Positions 192 to 16,086 of a DNA stretch of 64,000 bases are shown one piece after another; the first letter of the stretch is position 1; each line of letters starts with the position of its first letter. The DNA lies in assembly GCF_002896855.1 (NCBI RefSeq), contig NZ_CP021850.1:4365665-4429664 (forward strand). Direction: 5' to 3'. The stretch comes from Clostridium thermosuccinogenes (GTDB lineage: Bacteria > Bacillota > Clostridia > Acetivibrionales > DSM-5807). The translations under genes and the position numbers were made by a program. The notes beneath the pieces are model-generated. The model did not search any database and was not told where the DNA came from. It saw only the letters and a program-made list of their open reading frames with translations.

Positions 192-528
192 TCCCTCCCA
201 GGACTTTGTATAAAATATTAGACTATTTTTTACCTTCATGGTTCCATATATTTTAATGAGGGCTTAGCCCTAACGCTGTAAGATTAGTTCAATCATATCC
301 AATTGAACTAATTAGCCGGCATCCATGCGAGGAGGAGGCATTCTCCCCCTCCTGACCTTATCACTGGCTCCGCCCATCTTTTTAATTATATCCAACCTTT
401 GATGGGACAGGAAATCAAAATTTCAAAAAATTTTTTAAAAAAGTCTGTTATTTTTTTATCAAAGTATGTTATAATATAAACAGAGAATGTTAAATAATAA
501 ACAATATATATGAAGGTGGTGTTTACCT
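192..528. other. Intergenic region between divergent genes
   Basis: No gene seen. It holds a perfect 11-bp inverted repeat (283-312), a pyrimidine/purine-rich hairpin-like stretch near 328-355 (GAGGAGGAGG opposite TCCCCCTCCT), and a good -10 box TATAAT at 470-475 for the small gene at 529. The best -35 match (CTGTTA, 445-450) is weak and spaced 19. Confidence 0.5.
283..312. repeat. Perfect inverted repeat, 11-bp arms
   Basis: ATTAGTTCAAT at 283-293 and ATTGAACTAAT at 302-312 are exact reverse complements around an 8-base loop. No T-run follows on either strand, so it is not a standard terminator. It may be an operator or RNA hairpin. Confidence 0.6.
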
Positions 529-714
529 ATGACAGTATTGTTTTTAGCTATAATGGTTGCATTAAGCTATTCCTTGCTCAAGAGCATAATCAAACACGAA
601 ACAAGGCTTGCAGCAAAATTCGCCGATGTAAAAGCATTCGAACCGGACTATAATGATATGAGCGAAGACTCTTTGTGTTCGATTTATTATACATGCTATA
701 AATATCCCGCCTGA
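529..714 (+). CDS. Small single-pass membrane peptide (61 aa), unknown
   Basis: ATG preceded by GGTGGTG at good spacing and by a TATAAT at 470-475. Residues 1-18 form a hydrophobic helix (TVLFLAIMVALSYSLLKSI). The rest is polar, with a charged segment and a Cys/Tyr-rich tail (SLCSIYYTCYKYPA). It resembles many uncharacterised small clostridial membrane peptides. The family is not recognised, and small size is the main reason for doubt. Confidence 0.45.
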   Translation: MTVLFLAIMVALSYSLLKSIIKHETRLAAKFADVKAFEPDYNDMSEDSLCSIYYTCYKYPA

Positions 715-727
715 CGCATTTTTGTTC

Positions 728-822
728 ATGCCCATGGCGTTGTGCAGCAGTAATTGTTATGCCCTGGGCATTATGTAGCAGCCATGTGTTTTATATACCC
801 CATGGTGGCAATATGACAGCAG
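728..822. repeat. Three degenerate direct repeats of about 23-27 bp
   Basis: Copies at 728-750, 759-781 and 796-822 share an ATGCCC..GGC/CAT..AGCAG pattern with several mismatches and spacing of 31-39 bp. They fill most of the gap between the small peptide gene and the convergent gene ending at 904. Function unknown. Confidence 0.4.
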
Positions 823-903
823 TGCCCTATCAAATTATATTCATACCGTAATATTCGGGCTATGCAAATCCATAGCACATTTCATCGCACCGCATCCCGA
901 GCT

Positions 904-2238
904 TTATTGATAAACAGGGGTAACTGCCTGGGCCAGGATGGAATCTACGGAAATACCACGAAACCTTTTCTCCAGCTTCGCATACTTCTTCTTAAGGTTG
1001 TTTTCAAGGTTTTGCAGATATGCAAAACTGTAGGGCGAATAGGTTTCTATATGTTTTAGATAACTCTGGCTGAAAAACTTTTTATTCCTGGCTATGGCCT
1101 CCATTATGAGCAGTATGCAGTTGCTTTCTATTAAGCGTATCATTTCATGCTGACTGATATTCACATAATACATCCAGCTTTTCATATGGTGGTGAAGAAA
1201 ATTAAGCAAGCGGTTGGTAATGGAATCCAGCTTCCACCTTTTAGCTGTCTGGGAGAAAATGGTCATATGCCCGTTATTCATGTCCCTCTCAGCATCCTGC
1301 AGGTCATCAATCATCTGAAGAATGGCGCCGAAACCGAATATAAAATCCGCGTCTCCCTTACTTAGAATACCCTTCACCAGGAACGCATCCGCCAGCACAG
1401 ATGTGCCGCCCTTTTCAAAACTTATGTCAAGAATATTGCTTTCATAGGGTGATAAATCCTTTCCCTGCTGTTCCAGACTCCTCTCCTGCGCTTTGTGAAT
1501 GCAAAGAAGGCTGTCATAGACATAGGGGAACTCCCTGCGGGGATATTGCTTTTCAATTCTATCTACAAGCCTGAAGATTTGCTCTTCATGCTCATTTTCA
1601 GGTTTTTTACCTTCTCCGGAGAGCTTCCTTCTAAAATTCCTGCTGATCCTCCACTTGCTTTGAGGAGATATCCCCGCATCATCCATATAATTGTCAGTAA
1701 CAGGATACAGCATGCTGTAGGCAAAAATGGAAGGTGTGTATTCTACTTCTATGCCCATCAGCACCTGCATACAGTTCATAATCCATACGTTTCTCATGGC
1801 CTGCATTATATCCACCGGTCTGATGCCGGGATTAAAGGAGGACGCTTCCTCTATAAAAGCGCCGGTTACCCGGGCAAAATCTCCGAATATGATGTCAGAA
1901 AGCTTAGGGCTTTTTATACCCAAAATTTCAGCTCCCGCCGACCTTGCGATTCTTATGGCTTCTTCCTGCCAAGCTGCCCGTTTTTCCACCTGGCTGGGGA
2001 ACTTCTCCAGCTTGCCGTACAGTGCGTTAATCCACATATCGGCATCCTTTTCCTTCTGCCTTTTCATAGATTTATCCATGGGTTCTCCCAGCTCCGGCAT
2101 AGATACCGGAGTGTTCCACCAGGTTTTTTGGTACCTGTCCTTGAAGGATTCCACCCATTCGTCCACGCAGAGAGCTTCCTTCCTCCCCGTTTTGCTACCC
2201 TCACGCACCTTCAGTTTAACTTCCTCATACACCTTCAT
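904..2238 (-). CDS. Putative class I isoprenoid-synthase-fold protein (444 aa), uncharacterised
   Basis: The start ATG at 2238 follows GGAGGT at spacing 7. I see two aspartate clusters in the order expected for trans-prenyltransferases: TDNYMDD at residues 181-187 and QMIDDLQDAERD at 308-319. A KGGTSVLADAFLVKG segment (276-290) sits before the second cluster, where polyprenyl synthases carry their K-T...L..A...G segment. These motifs normally bind Mg-diphosphate. The first motif is DNxxDD rather than DDxxD. At 444 aa it is longer than ordinary prenyl synthases (about 300-350 aa), with extra N- and C-terminal regions rich in Lys, Trp and Tyr and no signal peptide. It follows the SPFH gene on the same strand. 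The fold call is inference from motifs; substrate and activity are unknown. Confidence 0.55.
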   Translation of the reverse strand: MKVYEEVKLKVREGSKTGRKEALCVDEWVESFKDRYQKTWWNTPVSMPELGEPMDKSMKRQKEKDADMWINALYGKLEKFPSQVEKRAAWQEEAIRIARSAGAEILGIKSPKLSDIIFGDFARVTGAFIEEASSFNPGIRPVDIMQAMRNVWIMNCMQVLMGIEVEYTPSIFAYSMLYPVTDNYMDDAGISPQSKWRISRNFRRKLSGEGKKPENEHEEQIFRLVDRIEKQYPRREFPYVYDSLLCIHKAQERSLEQQGKDLSPYESNILDISFEKGGTSVLADAFLVKGILSKGDADFIFGFGAILQMIDDLQDAERDMNNGHMTIFSQTAKRWKLDSITNRLLNFLHHHMKSWMYYVNISQHEMIRLIESNCILLIMEAIARNKKFFSQSYLKHIETYSPYSFAYLQNLENNLKKKYAKLEKRFRGISVDSILAQAVTPVYQ

Positions 2239-2262
2239 TTTTTTACCTCCATACCATTATAG

Positions 2263-2301
2263 ACAACACGGCAGGCGATGTTGCACCTCCCGCCGTGTTG
2301 T
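2263..2301 (-). terminator. Hairpin between SPFH gene and downstream gene
   Basis: Perfect 10-bp arms (ACAACACGGC at 2263-2272, GCCGTGTTGT at 2292-2301) around a 19-base loop, 22 bases after the SPFH stop. There is no U-run after it on the minus strand, so it may be an RNA-stabilising or weakly terminating hairpin within one operon. Confidence 0.4.
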
Positions 2302-2322
2302 CCGGTATTATCCGATTGCTCC

Positions 2323-3126
2323 TTATTTCACCGGAATGTTGAAGATTGTGCCATTATCCCCCGATACATACTGGGGCATTTTGCCGTCCCATTTTTCAAT
2401 AGCCTTCAACTGAGCTTCTATCTCTCTTAATTTCAGCAGTTCCGGAGTGATCTCCTGCTTCTGGACTTTAAGCGCCTCTGCTTCAGCCTTTGCCTGGGTA
2501 ACCTTCTGCTCGGCTTCAATTTTAACCCTGTCCAAGTCCTGCTTTGCCTTAAGCGCCAGCTGCTGCGCTGTCTGCTTGGCTTCTATGGCCGCATTGAACT
2601 CTTCGCTGAATTCAAAGTTTACAATATTAAAGTCAGCAATTACTATACCATAGGGTCTCATCTTTTCATTCATGAGATCTTTAATGTTGCTGCTGACGGA
2701 CTGCCTCTGGGTGATGAGTTCTTCCGCCGTAAATTTCGCAGTAACCGCTTTTATGCTCTCCTGAGTGGCCGGAGCAATTACCACATCGGCGTAATTTTTC
2801 CCGATGGTCTTGTAAATTTTCGCGCTGTACTGAGGCTCCACCTTGTAGTTTACCACTATTTTGTTCTTTATCTCCTGCAAATCCTTTGAAGCAGCAGTGG
2901 AATCAATCTCAAGCTTTTGTATCCTGGTGTCTATCAATTCCACACTCTGTACAAAAGGAATCTTAAAGTGAATACCCTCACTCAGCACATTATCGCTGGC
3001 TGCTCCAAAGTTCAGCACCACACCGGTGTAACCCGAGCCAACCACCGTAAAGGAGTTAACCACCACTACCAGCAAAAACACCAGCACAAAACCTATCACC
3101 ATAAGCTTAACAACTTTCTTTGACAT
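2323..3126 (-). CDS. SPFH/band 7 (prohibitin-like) membrane protein
   Basis: A 267-aa protein with a basic N-terminus and one hydrophobic segment (about residues 6-27). The SPFH/prohibitin domain follows: VGSGYTGVVLNFG, then GIHFKIPF, IDTRIQKLEID and the NYKVEPQYSAKIYKTIG region. An Ala/Lys/Glu/Gln-rich coiled coil spans about residues 175-225. This is the usual prohibitin layout: anchor, SPFH domain, oligomerising helix. Such proteins form membrane-bound rings or microdomain scaffolds, often working with membrane proteases; no partner protease is nearby. The start is supported by GGGAGGT about 10 bases upstream. Family confidence is high; exact role unknown. Confidence 0.85.
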   Translation of the reverse strand: MSKKVVKLMVIGFVLVFLLVVVVNSFTVVGSGYTGVVLNFGAASDNVLSEGIHFKIPFVQSVELIDTRIQKLEIDSTAASKDLQEIKNKIVVNYKVEPQYSAKIYKTIGKNYADVVIAPATQESIKAVTAKFTAEELITQRQSVSSNIKDLMNEKMRPYGIVIADFNIVNFEFSEEFNAAIEAKQTAQQLALKAKQDLDRVKIEAEQKVTQAKAEAEALKVQKQEITPELLKLREIEAQLKAIEKWDGKMPQYVSGDNGTIFNIPVK

Positions 3127-3480
3127 AGCAATCTTTGACCTCCCATTAAATAATATTTTAATTGGCGTAGCATTAAAATTATGCCATAGTTTTTTTGTAT
3201 GTACTATGTTGTGTATCGCTCTACAATCTATATTATATCATAACGTTATATTTGTAAAGTACTTTTTAAATTTTTTTAATTCACCTTTGATATTTTTGAT
3301 ATCATTGTCCGATGACCACAAGGCTGGAGGGAGAATTTCATTTAAATCCGTTATTTTTATTGCAGCAAAAATACTCCATTATATGTTAATTTACCTGGAT
3401 ATGTTAATTTACCTGGCGCCCGGAGGCTTTTGCTTTATTTTCACCTATGTATCCTTTTCCCAGCCTATATATCCTCATCC
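3127..3480. other. Intergenic region upstream of the SPFH gene
   Basis: AT-rich promoter-like sequence. It contains an exact 18-bp tandem repeat (3381-3416) and the pflB terminator just beyond it. A plus-strand reading frame here has no ribosome site and odd composition, so I do not call it a gene. Confidence 0.4.
3381..3416. repeat. Exact 18-bp tandem direct repeat (2 copies)
   Basis: ATATGTTAATTTACCTGG occurs twice head to tail (3381-3398 and 3399-3416) in the gap between pflB and the SPFH gene. Probably a recent slippage duplication. Confidence 0.8.
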
Positions 3481-3518
3481 CAAAAGAAAAACCCCGGGGT
3501 CGGTTAAACCCCAGGGTT
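3481..3518 (-). terminator. Rho-independent terminator of pflB
   Basis: Read on the minus strand: AACCCTGGGG, a 9-base loop, CCCCGGGGTT, then a T-rich tail (TTTCTTTT). It lies about 90 bases after the pflB stop. Confidence 0.85.
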
Positions 3519-3608
3519 CTGAAATTCAATATAAGGTTGCTTTTACCTGTATAAAGTATCTATCTATTAAAGTTTACCTTGCATAAAGCAAAGCTTAATG
3601 ATTCTATA

Positions 3609-9091: not shown

Positions 9092-10528
9092 ATGAATTTA
9101 AAGAAGCGTTTGGCAATATCCAATGCCGCATTAGTTATTATTCCTTTTATAATAACCATTGTTGCATCTCTTGCCTATATATATGTTTCTGCCGGGCTAT
9201 TTAGGAAGGATATAAGCTATGAGAGCCTGGAGAACTTTACAAAAAAGCAATATGAGATTTTTCAGGCAAGCAGCATCCTTATGAAGGACAATCCTGAAAG
9301 GATCATGGAAAAGGATTTTCAGCAAAATATCGCTGATAGGTTGTCCGCAGTGGATGTGGATGTCATATTCCTAAAAGATCATGATGTGATATTCTCCACC
9401 AGAAAGCTGAGCAAAATAGATTTGGAAAAGTGCATACACAGTTCTGATGAAATATATACCGGTAAATCCATTTATTTGAGTGGAATACCCTTTATTGTAA
9501 GAACTATAACGCTGAATTTCAAGGATGGAAGCAGCGGATGGGCTATATTCCTTGCCCCTGTGGAAAGTAGCGAAAAGGCGACCCAGAACTTTGCCGTATT
9601 TTCCTTGCTCGTGTTCATAATTTCTTATCTGGCAACCAGTTTGCTGATGTCCTACGTATTGTCAAAAAGCATACTGCAGCCCCTTGCAAGGTTAAAGGTT
9701 TCCGCCGGAGAAATCAGCCACGGCAATCTCGACTATGAGGTAATCGTGGAAGGGGACGATGAGATAAAGGAACTGTGCGGATCTTTTGAGCAAATGAGGT
9801 TGAAATTAAAGGAGTCCGTACACACCCAGATGAAATACGATGAAAACAGGAAGATGCTTGTGTCAAGCATATCCCATGATCTTAAAACCCCCATCACCTC
9901 CATAAAAGGATATGTGGAAGGTATAATGGACGGAGTCGCCAATACACCAGAAAAGCTGCAGAAGTATTTGAAAACCATATATTCCAAAGCGCTTCAGGTG
10001 GACGGGATGATTGACGACCTCCTTTTGTACTCCAAGCTTGACCTCAAGCAGATACCTTTCAATTTTGAAAAGACCGATATAGTAAAGTACTTTGAAGACA
10101 GCATAACAGATAATGAGACGGAGCTGGAAAAATACAACATAAAAATAGAGCTTCACAATGAGCTTAAAGAATGCAGACATGTCCTGATAGACAGGGACAG
10201 AATGAGGCGAGTCGTGGTAAATATAATTGATAATGCGCGAAAGTATATGAACAAAGCCGAAGGCAAAATAGATATTATCCTTCGGGAAACCAATTCAAGC
10301 ATTGTTGTTGAAATACGGGACAACGGTGCTGGTATACCAAAAACCGCAATTTCCCAGGTATTTGACAGGTTTTACCGCGCCGATGCTTCCAGGAGCAAGA
10401 TAAGCGGAAGCGGACTCGGTCTGGCCATTGCAAAGCAAATAGTAGAAGGTCATGGCGGCAAAATATGGGCAAGAAGCCATGAAAACCAGGGTACCAGCAT
10501 AATGATTTCCCTGGGAAAGGTAATGTAA
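9092..10528 (+). CDS. Membrane sensor histidine kinase
   Basis: 478 aa. TM1 at about residues 8-32, an extracellular sensor of about 140 residues, TM2 at about 168-190, HAMP linker (about 190-242), then HisKA with the phospho-acceptor in SSISHDLKTPITS. The HATPase domain shows an N-box (NIIDNARKY), G1 (EIRDNGAGIP), F-box (VFDRFYRAD) and G2 (GSGLGLAIAK). It is complete. GGTGG precedes the ATG. It follows the ABC permease by 9 bases and precedes its partner regulator by 125 bases, so it is likely the sensor controlling this transporter operon. Confidence 0.93.
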   Translation: MNLKKRLAISNAALVIIPFIITIVASLAYIYVSAGLFRKDISYESLENFTKKQYEIFQASSILMKDNPERIMEKDFQQNIADRLSAVDVDVIFLKDHDVIFSTRKLSKIDLEKCIHSSDEIYTGKSIYLSGIPFIVRTITLNFKDGSSGWAIFLAPVESSEKATQNFAVFSLLVFIISYLATSLLMSYVLSKSILQPLARLKVSAGEISHGNLDYEVIVEGDDEIKELCGSFEQMRLKLKESVHTQMKYDENRKMLVSSISHDLKTPITSIKGYVEGIMDGVANTPEKLQKYLKTIYSKALQVDGMIDDLLLYSKLDLKQIPFNFEKTDIVKYFEDSITDNETELEKYNIKIELHNELKECRHVLIDRDRMRRVVVNIIDNARKYMNKAEGKIDIILRETNSSIVVEIRDNGAGIPKTAISQVFDRFYRADASRSKISGSGLGLAIAKQIVEGHGGKIWARSHENQGTSIMISLGKVM

Positions 10529-10653
10529 ATCAAAGCACCGCAGGCTCTTTGATCCGGCTTTGGCCGTGTGGGCATCAACACGTCCAAAATCGGTTTTGCT
10601 TATTACACAGTAATATAATATGAATATAACAAGAATTTTCTGGAGGTTTTGTT

Positions 10654-11349
10654 GTGAAGAAAATACTGATTGTTGAAGATGACCAGAGCATAGCTGAGCT
10701 TCAGAGGGATTATCTTGAAATAGGTGGTTTTTCCGTAGATATATGCAGTGACGGCATTTCCGGCCTCAAGGCTATCGAATCCGGACACTACGACCTAATA
10801 CTGCTGGATATCATGCTTCCCGGAATAGACGGATTTGAAATCCTGCGGCATGTTCGTGACACCATGGATGTCCCTGTCCTCCTGGTTTCTGCTAAAAAAG
10901 AAGAAATTGATAAAATAAGGGGCCTGGGGTTAGGAGCCGACGACTATATAACAAAGCCCTTCAGCCCCGGTGAACTGGTAGCGCGGGTTAATGCCCACAT
11001 ATCAAAATATGAAAGGCTGAAAAACAAGTATGCCAATGTAAAGAATGATACGGTGATAGCAATTCGCGGCTTGGAAATAAATAAAGATGCAAGGAGAGTT
11101 TTTGTAAACGGAAAGGAAGTCAATATGGCCCAGAAGGAGTTTGACTTGCTTTTATTCCTGGCCCAGAACCCCAACCGGGTTTTCTCAAGGGAAGAACTCT
11201 TCGAGAGGATTTGGGGGCTTGATTCCCTTGGGGATGCCGCCACTGTCACCGTGCATGTGGCAAGAATAAGGGAGAAAATCGAAACCGACCCGTCAAACCC
11301 TCAGTATATAGAAACAGTATGGGGCGCAGGATACCGGTTCAGGGTGTAA
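10654..11349 (+). CDS. OmpR-family response regulator
   Basis: 231 aa, GTG start at 10654 after TGGAGGT (spacing 6). The receiver domain has the acidic pair ED-D (residues 8-10), phospho-acceptor D52 in LILLDIMLPG, the Ser of LLVSAKKE and K101 in ITKPF. The C-terminal winged helix (about 135-231) contains EFDLLLFLAQNP, the recognition segment FSREELFERIWG and the terminal YIETVWGAGYRF. It is the partner of the kinase upstream and probably autoregulates the ABC/kinase operon. Confidence 0.93.
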   Translation: MKKILIVEDDQSIAELQRDYLEIGGFSVDICSDGISGLKAIESGHYDLILLDIMLPGIDGFEILRHVRDTMDVPVLLVSAKKEEIDKIRGLGLGADDYITKPFSPGELVARVNAHISKYERLKNKYANVKNDTVIAIRGLEINKDARRVFVNGKEVNMAQKEFDLLLFLAQNPNRVFSREELFERIWGLDSLGDAATVTVHVARIREKIETDPSNPQYIETVWGAGYRFRV

Positions 11350-15138: not shown

Positions 15139-15424
15139 GCATGTACATCCTCCAGTTCATTAATCTTGCAAAAATCAAAAACACCGCAATAAATAAACCC
15201 TTTCACTTACAGCAATATGCACAATCGGGCAATTTAGTTCTTACAAGTTTTATATATCATTACCATACACGGTTGTTGATATATGCAGCTATAGATTTTT
15301 TACTTTTTCATAATGTTTGAAATTATATAGAAAATGCTACGTTTTTTACACGTATAGAGTTCTTATGAATCTGTGTCGGAGGAAATTTAGTTAAAATGTA
15401 ACCTGTCTGATTTGCTGCTTCCTT
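15139..15424. other. Promoter-bearing intergenic region of the sugar importer
   Basis: No gene seen. A minus-strand TATAAT lies in the TTTCTATATAATTTC stretch near 15325-15340, next to an inverted repeat TACGT...ACGTA. No convincing -35 was found. Confidence 0.35.
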
Positions 15425-15577
15425 TCAATTCTTCTGCTTCCCAGCTTTATCAGTTGAAATCTTTTTACTTATAATGTCCTGCATATACTTTAGTGTTTGT
15501 AGGATACCTAAGGCATAACTTTGATTTTCGGGGTTTAGCTTTTCGTATGTTTTAGACAGGATTTCGGTTTTACTCAT
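15425..15577 (-). CDS. Small SinI-like partner of the divergent repressor (50 aa)
   Basis: The start ATG at 15577 follows AAGGAGG at spacing about 9; longer in-frame versions lack a ribosome site. It has no DNA-binding domain. Residues 10-33 (YEKLNPENQSYALGILQTLK and on) closely match residues 84-107 of the divergent XRE regulator (FESLNPDLQDYALKQIKAFL and on). A stand-alone copy of a repressor's C-terminal segment is the pattern of SinI, which binds SinR and disables it. I infer a heterodimerising anti-repressor or co-regulator. The C-terminus is Lys-rich. It has its own promoter flanked by an operator. Confidence 0.65.
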   Translation of the reverse strand: MSKTEILSKTYEKLNPENQSYALGILQTLKYMQDIISKKISTDKAGKQKN

Positions 15578-15597
15578 ACACAAAAACCTCCTTAGAG

Positions 15598-15613
15598 TGT
15601 GTTTATAAACACA
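15598..15613. promoter_or_regulatory. Palindromic operator, copy 1
   Basis: TGTGTTTATAAACACA is a perfect 16-bp palindrome lying at the -10/transcription-start region of the minus-strand small gene, so binding would block that promoter. Confidence 0.75.
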
Positions 15614-15641
15614 GCATATCACATAATCTTGTGTCAGTCAA
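15613..15641 (-). promoter_or_regulatory. Promoter of the small SinI-like gene
   Basis: Minus-strand -35 TTGACT (15636-15641), 17-base spacer, -10 TATGCT (15613-15618). It abuts operator copy 1. Confidence 0.7.
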
Positions 15642-15674
15642 CATTTAATTTTGGAAATTTTTTATATTTTTTGT

Positions 15675-15690
15675 TGTGTTGACAAACACA
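15675..15690. promoter_or_regulatory. Palindromic operator, copy 2
   Basis: TGTGTTGACAAACACA matches copy 1 at 14 of 16 positions and covers the -35 box of the repressor gene. The two operators are 77 bp apart, which suggests negative autoregulation and coordinated control of both promoters. Confidence 0.75.
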
Positions 15691-15707
15691 CTTTTTTTGT
15701 ATATTAT
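15679..15707 (+). promoter_or_regulatory. Promoter of the XRE repressor gene
   Basis: -35 TTGACA (15679-15684, consensus), 17-base spacer, -10 TATTAT (15702-15707). The -35 lies inside operator copy 2. Confidence 0.8.
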
Positions 15708-15741
15708 TTTTTGTATATTATGATGATACGAGGTGATTTTA

Positions 15742-16086
15742 ATGCTGCACAAAAGAATAAGAGAAGTACGAACCCTTTTAAAAATGTCACAAAAAGATTT
15801 TGGTGACAAATTGGGAGTCAGCAGGGATGTTATAGCCAATATAGAATATAATCGGGCAAAGCCGCAGAAAATATTTATTCAGCATCTATGTTCCACCTTT
15901 AATGTAAATCAGGATTGGCTGGAAACCGGAGAGGGGAGTGTTTTTATCAATGACAAAAGAAGTAAAAATCTGTCGGAGGCCATCCGCATATTTGAGTCCC
16001 TCAATCCCGATCTGCAGGACTACGCTTTAAAACAGATCAAAGCTTTTCTGGAGCTGCAGGAAAAGAAATCTCCACCATCTCCGTAA
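15742..16086 (+). CDS. XRE/Cro-CI family transcriptional regulator (114 aa)
   Basis: The N-terminal HTH (about residues 4-60) shows the classic pattern IREVRTLLKMSQKDFGDKLG, then VSRDVIANIEYNRAKP. After a short linker the C-terminal helices (about 78-108) carry FESLNPDLQDYALKQIKAFL, the segment shared with the divergent small protein. The start is ATG 15742, 5 bases after GAGGTG; a GTG 9 bases earlier overlaps that site. It is probably autoregulated through operators at 15598 and 15675. The layout resembles a SinR-like or phage-type repressor. Targets beyond this locus are unknown. Confidence 0.88.
   Translation: MLHKRIREVRTLLKMSQKDFGDKLGVSRDVIANIEYNRAKPQKIFIQHLCSTFNVNQDWLETGEGSVFINDKRSKNLSEAIRIFESLNPDLQDYALKQIKAFLELQEKKSPPSP

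Follow-up and report, generated by a model that had tools for sequence, protein, structure and literature searches.

Organization of the locus

The window, that is, the whole 64-kb stretch of DNA analyzed, carries at 15425-16086 a pair of divergent genes separated by 164 bp. The gene on the minus strand (15425..15577, ATG at 15577, stop at 15425) encodes a small protein of 50 aa and is preceded by a Shine-Dalgarno sequence, TAAGGAGG on the minus strand (15587..15594), read from the sequence. The gene on the plus strand (15742..16086, ATG at 15742) encodes an XRE repressor of 114 aa. Both genes were found where the initial annotation had placed them.

The repressor contains an HTH domain (Pfam HTH_3, E=5e-10) followed by a C-terminal hairpin, which AlphaFold modeled as helices 72-86 and 89-108 (pLDDT 88). 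Its nearest NCBIfam model was RstR (NF041951), the repressor of CTXphi whose antirepressor is RstC; the match covered 100 residues (E=6e-8) but reached only 32.9 bits against a curated cut-off of 80, and the protein is referred to here as RstR-like. The GVSRDVI stretch of the HTH was identical in the window repressor and in all the repressors of alignment A8, that of L016 excepted.

The small protein was modeled as a two-helix hairpin (helices 3-13 and 16-48, pLDDT 88). It matched nothing in Pfam, HTH domains included, gave no credible NCBIfam match and no PADLOC match, and matched no PDB chain. Phage, plasmid and PDB searches with the small proteins as queries returned nothing useful, and Foldseek with the small-protein model gave no meaningful match, as expected for a hairpin of 50 aa. 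The family as a whole has no Pfam or NCBIfam model; its member in Clostridioides phage AR1086-1 matches phrog_25762, which is listed as of unknown function in PHROGs. Synonymous codon changes outnumbered non-synonymous ones in the small genes of close pairs of loci (10:4 and 9:5), indicating that they behave like translated genes under selection; the corresponding ratios for the repressors were 29:7 and 23:6.

A type II toxin-antitoxin system with an XRE antitoxin was considered and rejected, since the small protein belongs to no toxin family (Pfam, PADLOC; no credible NCBIfam match) and the genes are divergent, with no common operon. Downstream of the small gene, beyond an AT-rich gap of 286 bp (15139-15424), lies an operon for an ABC transporter that runs in the same direction (15138 to 11470). 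Simple scans of this gap revealed neither a terminator nor a promoter, and transcription of the small gene may read through into the operon.

Operators and promoters of the intergenic region

A promoter scan predicted a small-gene promoter, TTGACT-17-TATGCT, on the minus strand (15641 to 15613) and a repressor promoter, TTGACA-17-TATTAT, on the plus strand (15679..15707). Promoter-like sites were no more numerous in the region than expected by chance, and these assignments therefore rest on their position and on the operators associated with them.

Two matching palindromes had been reported in the initial annotation, one on each promoter, and both were confirmed, one as a perfect palindrome and the other as a near-copy. 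The predicted operator O1, TGTGTTTATAAACACA (15598..15613), is a perfect 16-bp palindrome, of which the window contains just one other; O1 lies directly after the predicted small-gene -10, at the transcription start, and occupies the same place in relatives. The predicted operator O2, TGTGTTGACAAACACA (15675..15690), covers the -35 of the repressor, is likewise conserved in relatives, shares 14 of 16 bases with O1 and is palindromic in six of its eight base pairs. A third predicted operator, overlooked previously, is O3, a degenerate site, TGTGTCAGTCAACATT (15630..15645), which covers the small-gene -35 and forms a repeat with O2. O3 lies 32 bp from O1, centre to centre, which is the spacing seen in relatives, while the distance from O3 to O2 is 45 bp in the window and 31 bp in relatives.

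Half-sites of the TGTGTTG type were in excess in 11 of 12 intergenic regions, that of the window included, with four to eight found where one or two were expected. In most relatives they lie near positions 24, 56, 87 and 107 from the small-gene start, the first three being about 32 bp apart. The remaining region, that of L112, contained no such half-site by pattern, and GAGTT variants were seen in it by eye.

A genome-wide search for the palindrome had been proposed as a way to find the regulon. Exact matches to TGTGTTNANNAACACA occurred only twice in the 4.73-Mb genome, at O1 and O2, and all other sites with one mismatch were located within ORFs, so that no other promoter of the genome carries a site. 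This result suggests that the repressor probably acts only locally.

Similarity of the small protein to the repressor C-terminus

The C-terminal segment that the two proteins were said to share aligned residues 9-34 of the small protein with residues 82-107 of the repressor (E=7e-5, pairwise BLASTP). Of 20,000 shuffled small proteins only 6 reached its score, and the 2,499 other segments of 50 aa in the window all fell short of it; the similarity is thus above chance. When the 7,747 ORFs of all collected loci were searched with an HMM trained on seven small proteins only, the ten small proteins of the family ranked first, followed mostly by the C-termini of repressors (E from 1e-4) and by divergent small ORFs found at other loci. 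Comparison of the small-protein and repressor families by hhalign aligned small-protein residues 2-37 with repressor residues 73-110 (P=7.6e-6, probability 84%). The two hairpins modeled by AlphaFold turn at an equivalent LN (L14-N15 in the small protein, L87-N88 in the repressor), and L, Q and L positions are common to both.

The segment is short, its significance for single sequences is low and the similarity becomes marginal in distant classes, as would be expected if the two proteins had arrived at a generic helical hairpin by convergence, the small gene being merely the first gene of a divergent operon of unrelated function. The small-family HMM, the profile comparison, the common turn, the common L, Q and L positions and the cognate excess described below all argue against this explanation, which we regard as highly improbable. 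Sequence profiles and structure models together support the view that the small protein is homologous to the C-terminal hairpin of the repressor and forms a stand-alone version of it.

The similarity was stronger between partners of the same locus. In 54 pairs chosen automatically by rule, the cognate mean z was 1.22 compared with 0.42 for permuted pairs, a value as high being reached in none of 20,000 permutations (p<5e-5), and in 18 chosen pairs, compared within sequence classes, small proteins scored 3.19 with their own repressor and 2.46 with others (p=1e-4); these p-values overstate the evidence, because the loci are related and the permutations treat them as independent. Outside the window-like classes the cognate signal was weak (p=0.011 in the 54-pair set), and the rule may therefore not cover all divergent small ORFs. 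An example of matched change is L112, in which an R is found in both the small protein (FSGLSPNNRQY) and the repressor (FSALSPKYRTY), at a position occupied by Q in most window-like members.

A hairpin common by descent could also belong to a small protein whose partner lies elsewhere, either the repressor of another element or the small protein itself, the local pair being non-interacting. Some antirepressors do target the repressors of other prophages (PMC3121763), and the host genome encodes further XRE regulators. However, cognate partners resemble each other more than non-cognate ones do, also when the comparison is kept within a class, and no other protein of the genome closely matches the window repressor. 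A distant partner is therefore very unlikely in our view.

Conservation and genomic context of the gene pair

Repressors with the same C-terminus were sought in about 1,400 genomes, which included no close relatives of the host, and in IMG/VR. Relatives were found at L057 and L058 (50% identity), L086, L087, L088, L109 and L112, and on the viral contigs L117-L120 (48-56%). A divergent small gene of the same family was present in the same place at nine further loci (L057, L058, L087, L088, L109, L112, L117, L118 and L120); none was found at L086, L119 or the more distant L016, L086 and L119 having a different divergent ORF. In a wider set of RstR-like repressors, 55 of 89 non-redundant ones had a divergent ORF of 40-75 aa with a Shine-Dalgarno sequence, compared with 5 in the same-strand control, which is imperfect because genes rarely sit upstream on the same strand.

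The genes next to the pair differed among relatives, suggesting that the cassette is portable. At L103 (G438, 9309-11128) and L104 (G565, 203-3589) the small gene is directly upstream of, and co-directional with, genes for SpaA/VWA-type LPXTG pilins, an arrangement which suggests that the repressor may control pili at these two loci. At L109 and L111 the small gene is followed by co-directional genes for a small membrane protein and LGT. At L101 and L102 (G216 and G327) the cassette lies between a GH97 multidomain secreted protein of more than 2000 aa and an exopolysaccharide cluster, beside a tyrosine integrase. Related bacteria carry the same cassette both in likely prophages and ahead of pilus genes and others.

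Three further arrangements were observed. In L112 (1514-3927) an ATGA overlap joins the small gene to an ORF of 735 aa that has a membrane N-terminus and carries a diacylglycerol kinase domain; this overlap implies translational coupling. The viral contig L117 (2671-5413) carries three such repressors in tandem, at least two of them with a divergent small ORF. Phage AR1086-1 (L032) carries two RstR-like repressors (1194-1833 and 2307-2645), both accompanied by a divergent small ORF; that of the first encodes the phrog_25762 member.

Only host genes were recognized by eye in the window, and among the genes surrounding the pair Pfam identified those for a response regulator, an ABC transporter permease, a solute-binding protein and a HAD hydrolase; inspection of the ORFs of the window by eye revealed no integrase, relaxase or phage structural gene. 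The cassette has a low GC content (33% compared with about 44%). This lack of mobile-element genes, the low GC, the occurrence of the viral contigs L117-L120 among the closest relatives and the lack of another operator in the genome would all fit an immunity region, decayed or idle, that a lost prophage or conjugative element has left behind, intact but now functionless in the host. On the other hand, both reading frames, the promoters and the operators are intact, and some relatives precede host genes such as those for pilins, so we consider an idle remnant unlikely.

Comparison with known repressor-antagonist systems

In Bacillus subtilis, SinI resembles a truncated SinR and disrupts the SinR tetramer (PMC6123443, PMC5864091). 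The window pair is similar in that the small protein resembles the C-terminal oligomerization helices of a repressor that is of similar size to SinR and has an N-terminal HTH (PMC6123443, PMC5864091), and Foldseek listed SinR (1b0n chain A) for the repressor model. It differs in that sinI and sinR are co-directional whereas the window genes are divergent, with operators on both promoters and no matrix genes known to be under control here; the sequence match to SinR was restricted to the HTH (E=0.0099). PF08671 was absent from both the small protein and the repressor (Pfam, no match at E<=10), and its matches in the rest of the genome were all below the cut-off and all elsewhere. The SinI/SinR design proposed in the initial annotation is consequently retained for the homology of the small protein to the repressor hairpin, whereas membership of the SinI family is rejected, given that neither protein has PF08671 and the genes are not co-directional.

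The layout resembles that of CI/MOR of phage TP901-1, in which divergent genes, several operators, a small antirepressor and partial autorepression form a bistable system (PMC7250872). The CI/MOR switches of TP901-1 and phi13 share with the window the divergent genes and several operators, and the operators on both promoters match the TP901-1 layout as well. MOR, however, resembles Cro-type DNA-binding domains and binds the N-terminal domain of CI (PMC11149083), while the small protein of the window has no HTH, as judged from Pfam and from the hairpin model, and resembles a C-terminal hairpin. Judged by its sequence, the cassette would work like SinI/SinR, is laid out like CI/MOR and fails a defining feature of each.

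Two other systems are comparable in part. In the smORF antirepressor modules of phage-plasmids, small proteins inactivate a repressor in a cognate-specific manner (Silpe et al. 2023, PMC10432266); those smORFs have no homologues, and their activator is a separate transcription factor encoded divergently (PMC10432266), whereas in the window only the repressor gene is divergent to the small gene and the small protein is homologous to the repressor. The second best PDB sequence match of the repressor, restricted to the HTH, was the Phi106 repressor-AimX complex (PDB 9sf2), by its title an XRE phage repressor bound by a small antagonist, although the small protein itself matches no PDB chain; this solved structure offers a helpful reference for the mode of binding. 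A literature search, with most subscription journals outside its reach, found no paper on the 9sf2 complex and none describing the present cassette.

Proposed mechanism

We propose that the locus is a self-contained control cassette in which the small protein pairs with the C-terminal hairpin of the repressor and inactivates it, a reading that the sequences and models make probable. The repressor would dimerize through its C-terminal two-helix hairpin and would probably multimerize further. Bound to O1, O3 and O2, it would shut off the small gene strongly and its own gene partly. When in excess, the small protein would pair with the repressor hairpin, breaking the oligomer and lifting repression at both promoters, in such a way that a free hairpin dissolves the repressor-operator complex by titration in the manner of SinI on SinR (PMC6123443). 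Formation of the heteromer, loss of DNA binding, any bistability and the inducing signal are what we infer for this circuit.

Since O2 covers its own -35, the repressor should repress itself, and this negative autoregulation works against a simple mutual-repression toggle. Because the circuit combines mutual antagonism with negative autoregulation, bistability cannot be assumed; in TP901-1 it comes about through a further action of the CI:MOR complex (PMC7250872).

The opposition of O2 autoregulation to a plain toggle is also consistent with a different role, in which the small protein, once bound to the repressor, acts as a co-repressor or modulates specificity, shifting operator occupancy instead of inactivating the repressor, as CI:MOR does at PR of TP901-1 and gp7 does with LexA. 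The divergent layout with several operators is that of TP901-1 (PMC7250872), gp7 is itself a small phage co-repressor (PMC9700832), and such a role would leave identical sequence signals. However, MOR touches the N-terminal domain of CI (PMC11149083), and disruption fits better with a small protein that has no HTH and resembles the oligomerization hairpin. Co-repression is thus fairly unlikely, and inactivation through the hairpin is the reading that we retain.

Conclusions

More generally, and tentatively, the locus may represent an unnamed cassette recurrent in Firmicutes, in which a repressor is antagonized by a co-evolving, divergently encoded free copy of its own oligomerization hairpin, and which, as a portable epigenetic switch, would be common to prophages and to promoters of the host (pili, lipoprotein processing and others); we rate this wider reading at somewhat below even chances.

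The cassette suggests a testable function for small proteins that have no model in Pfam or NCBIfam and, where matched, are of unknown function in PHROGs. It also points to a means of switching off phage-type repressors that lack a peptidase domain. As the pair occupies about 660 bp, transfer of the complete circuit to a laboratory host is feasible. The presence of the same cassette in viral contigs and ahead of pilus genes would connect the immunity switches of phages with variation of the host surface.
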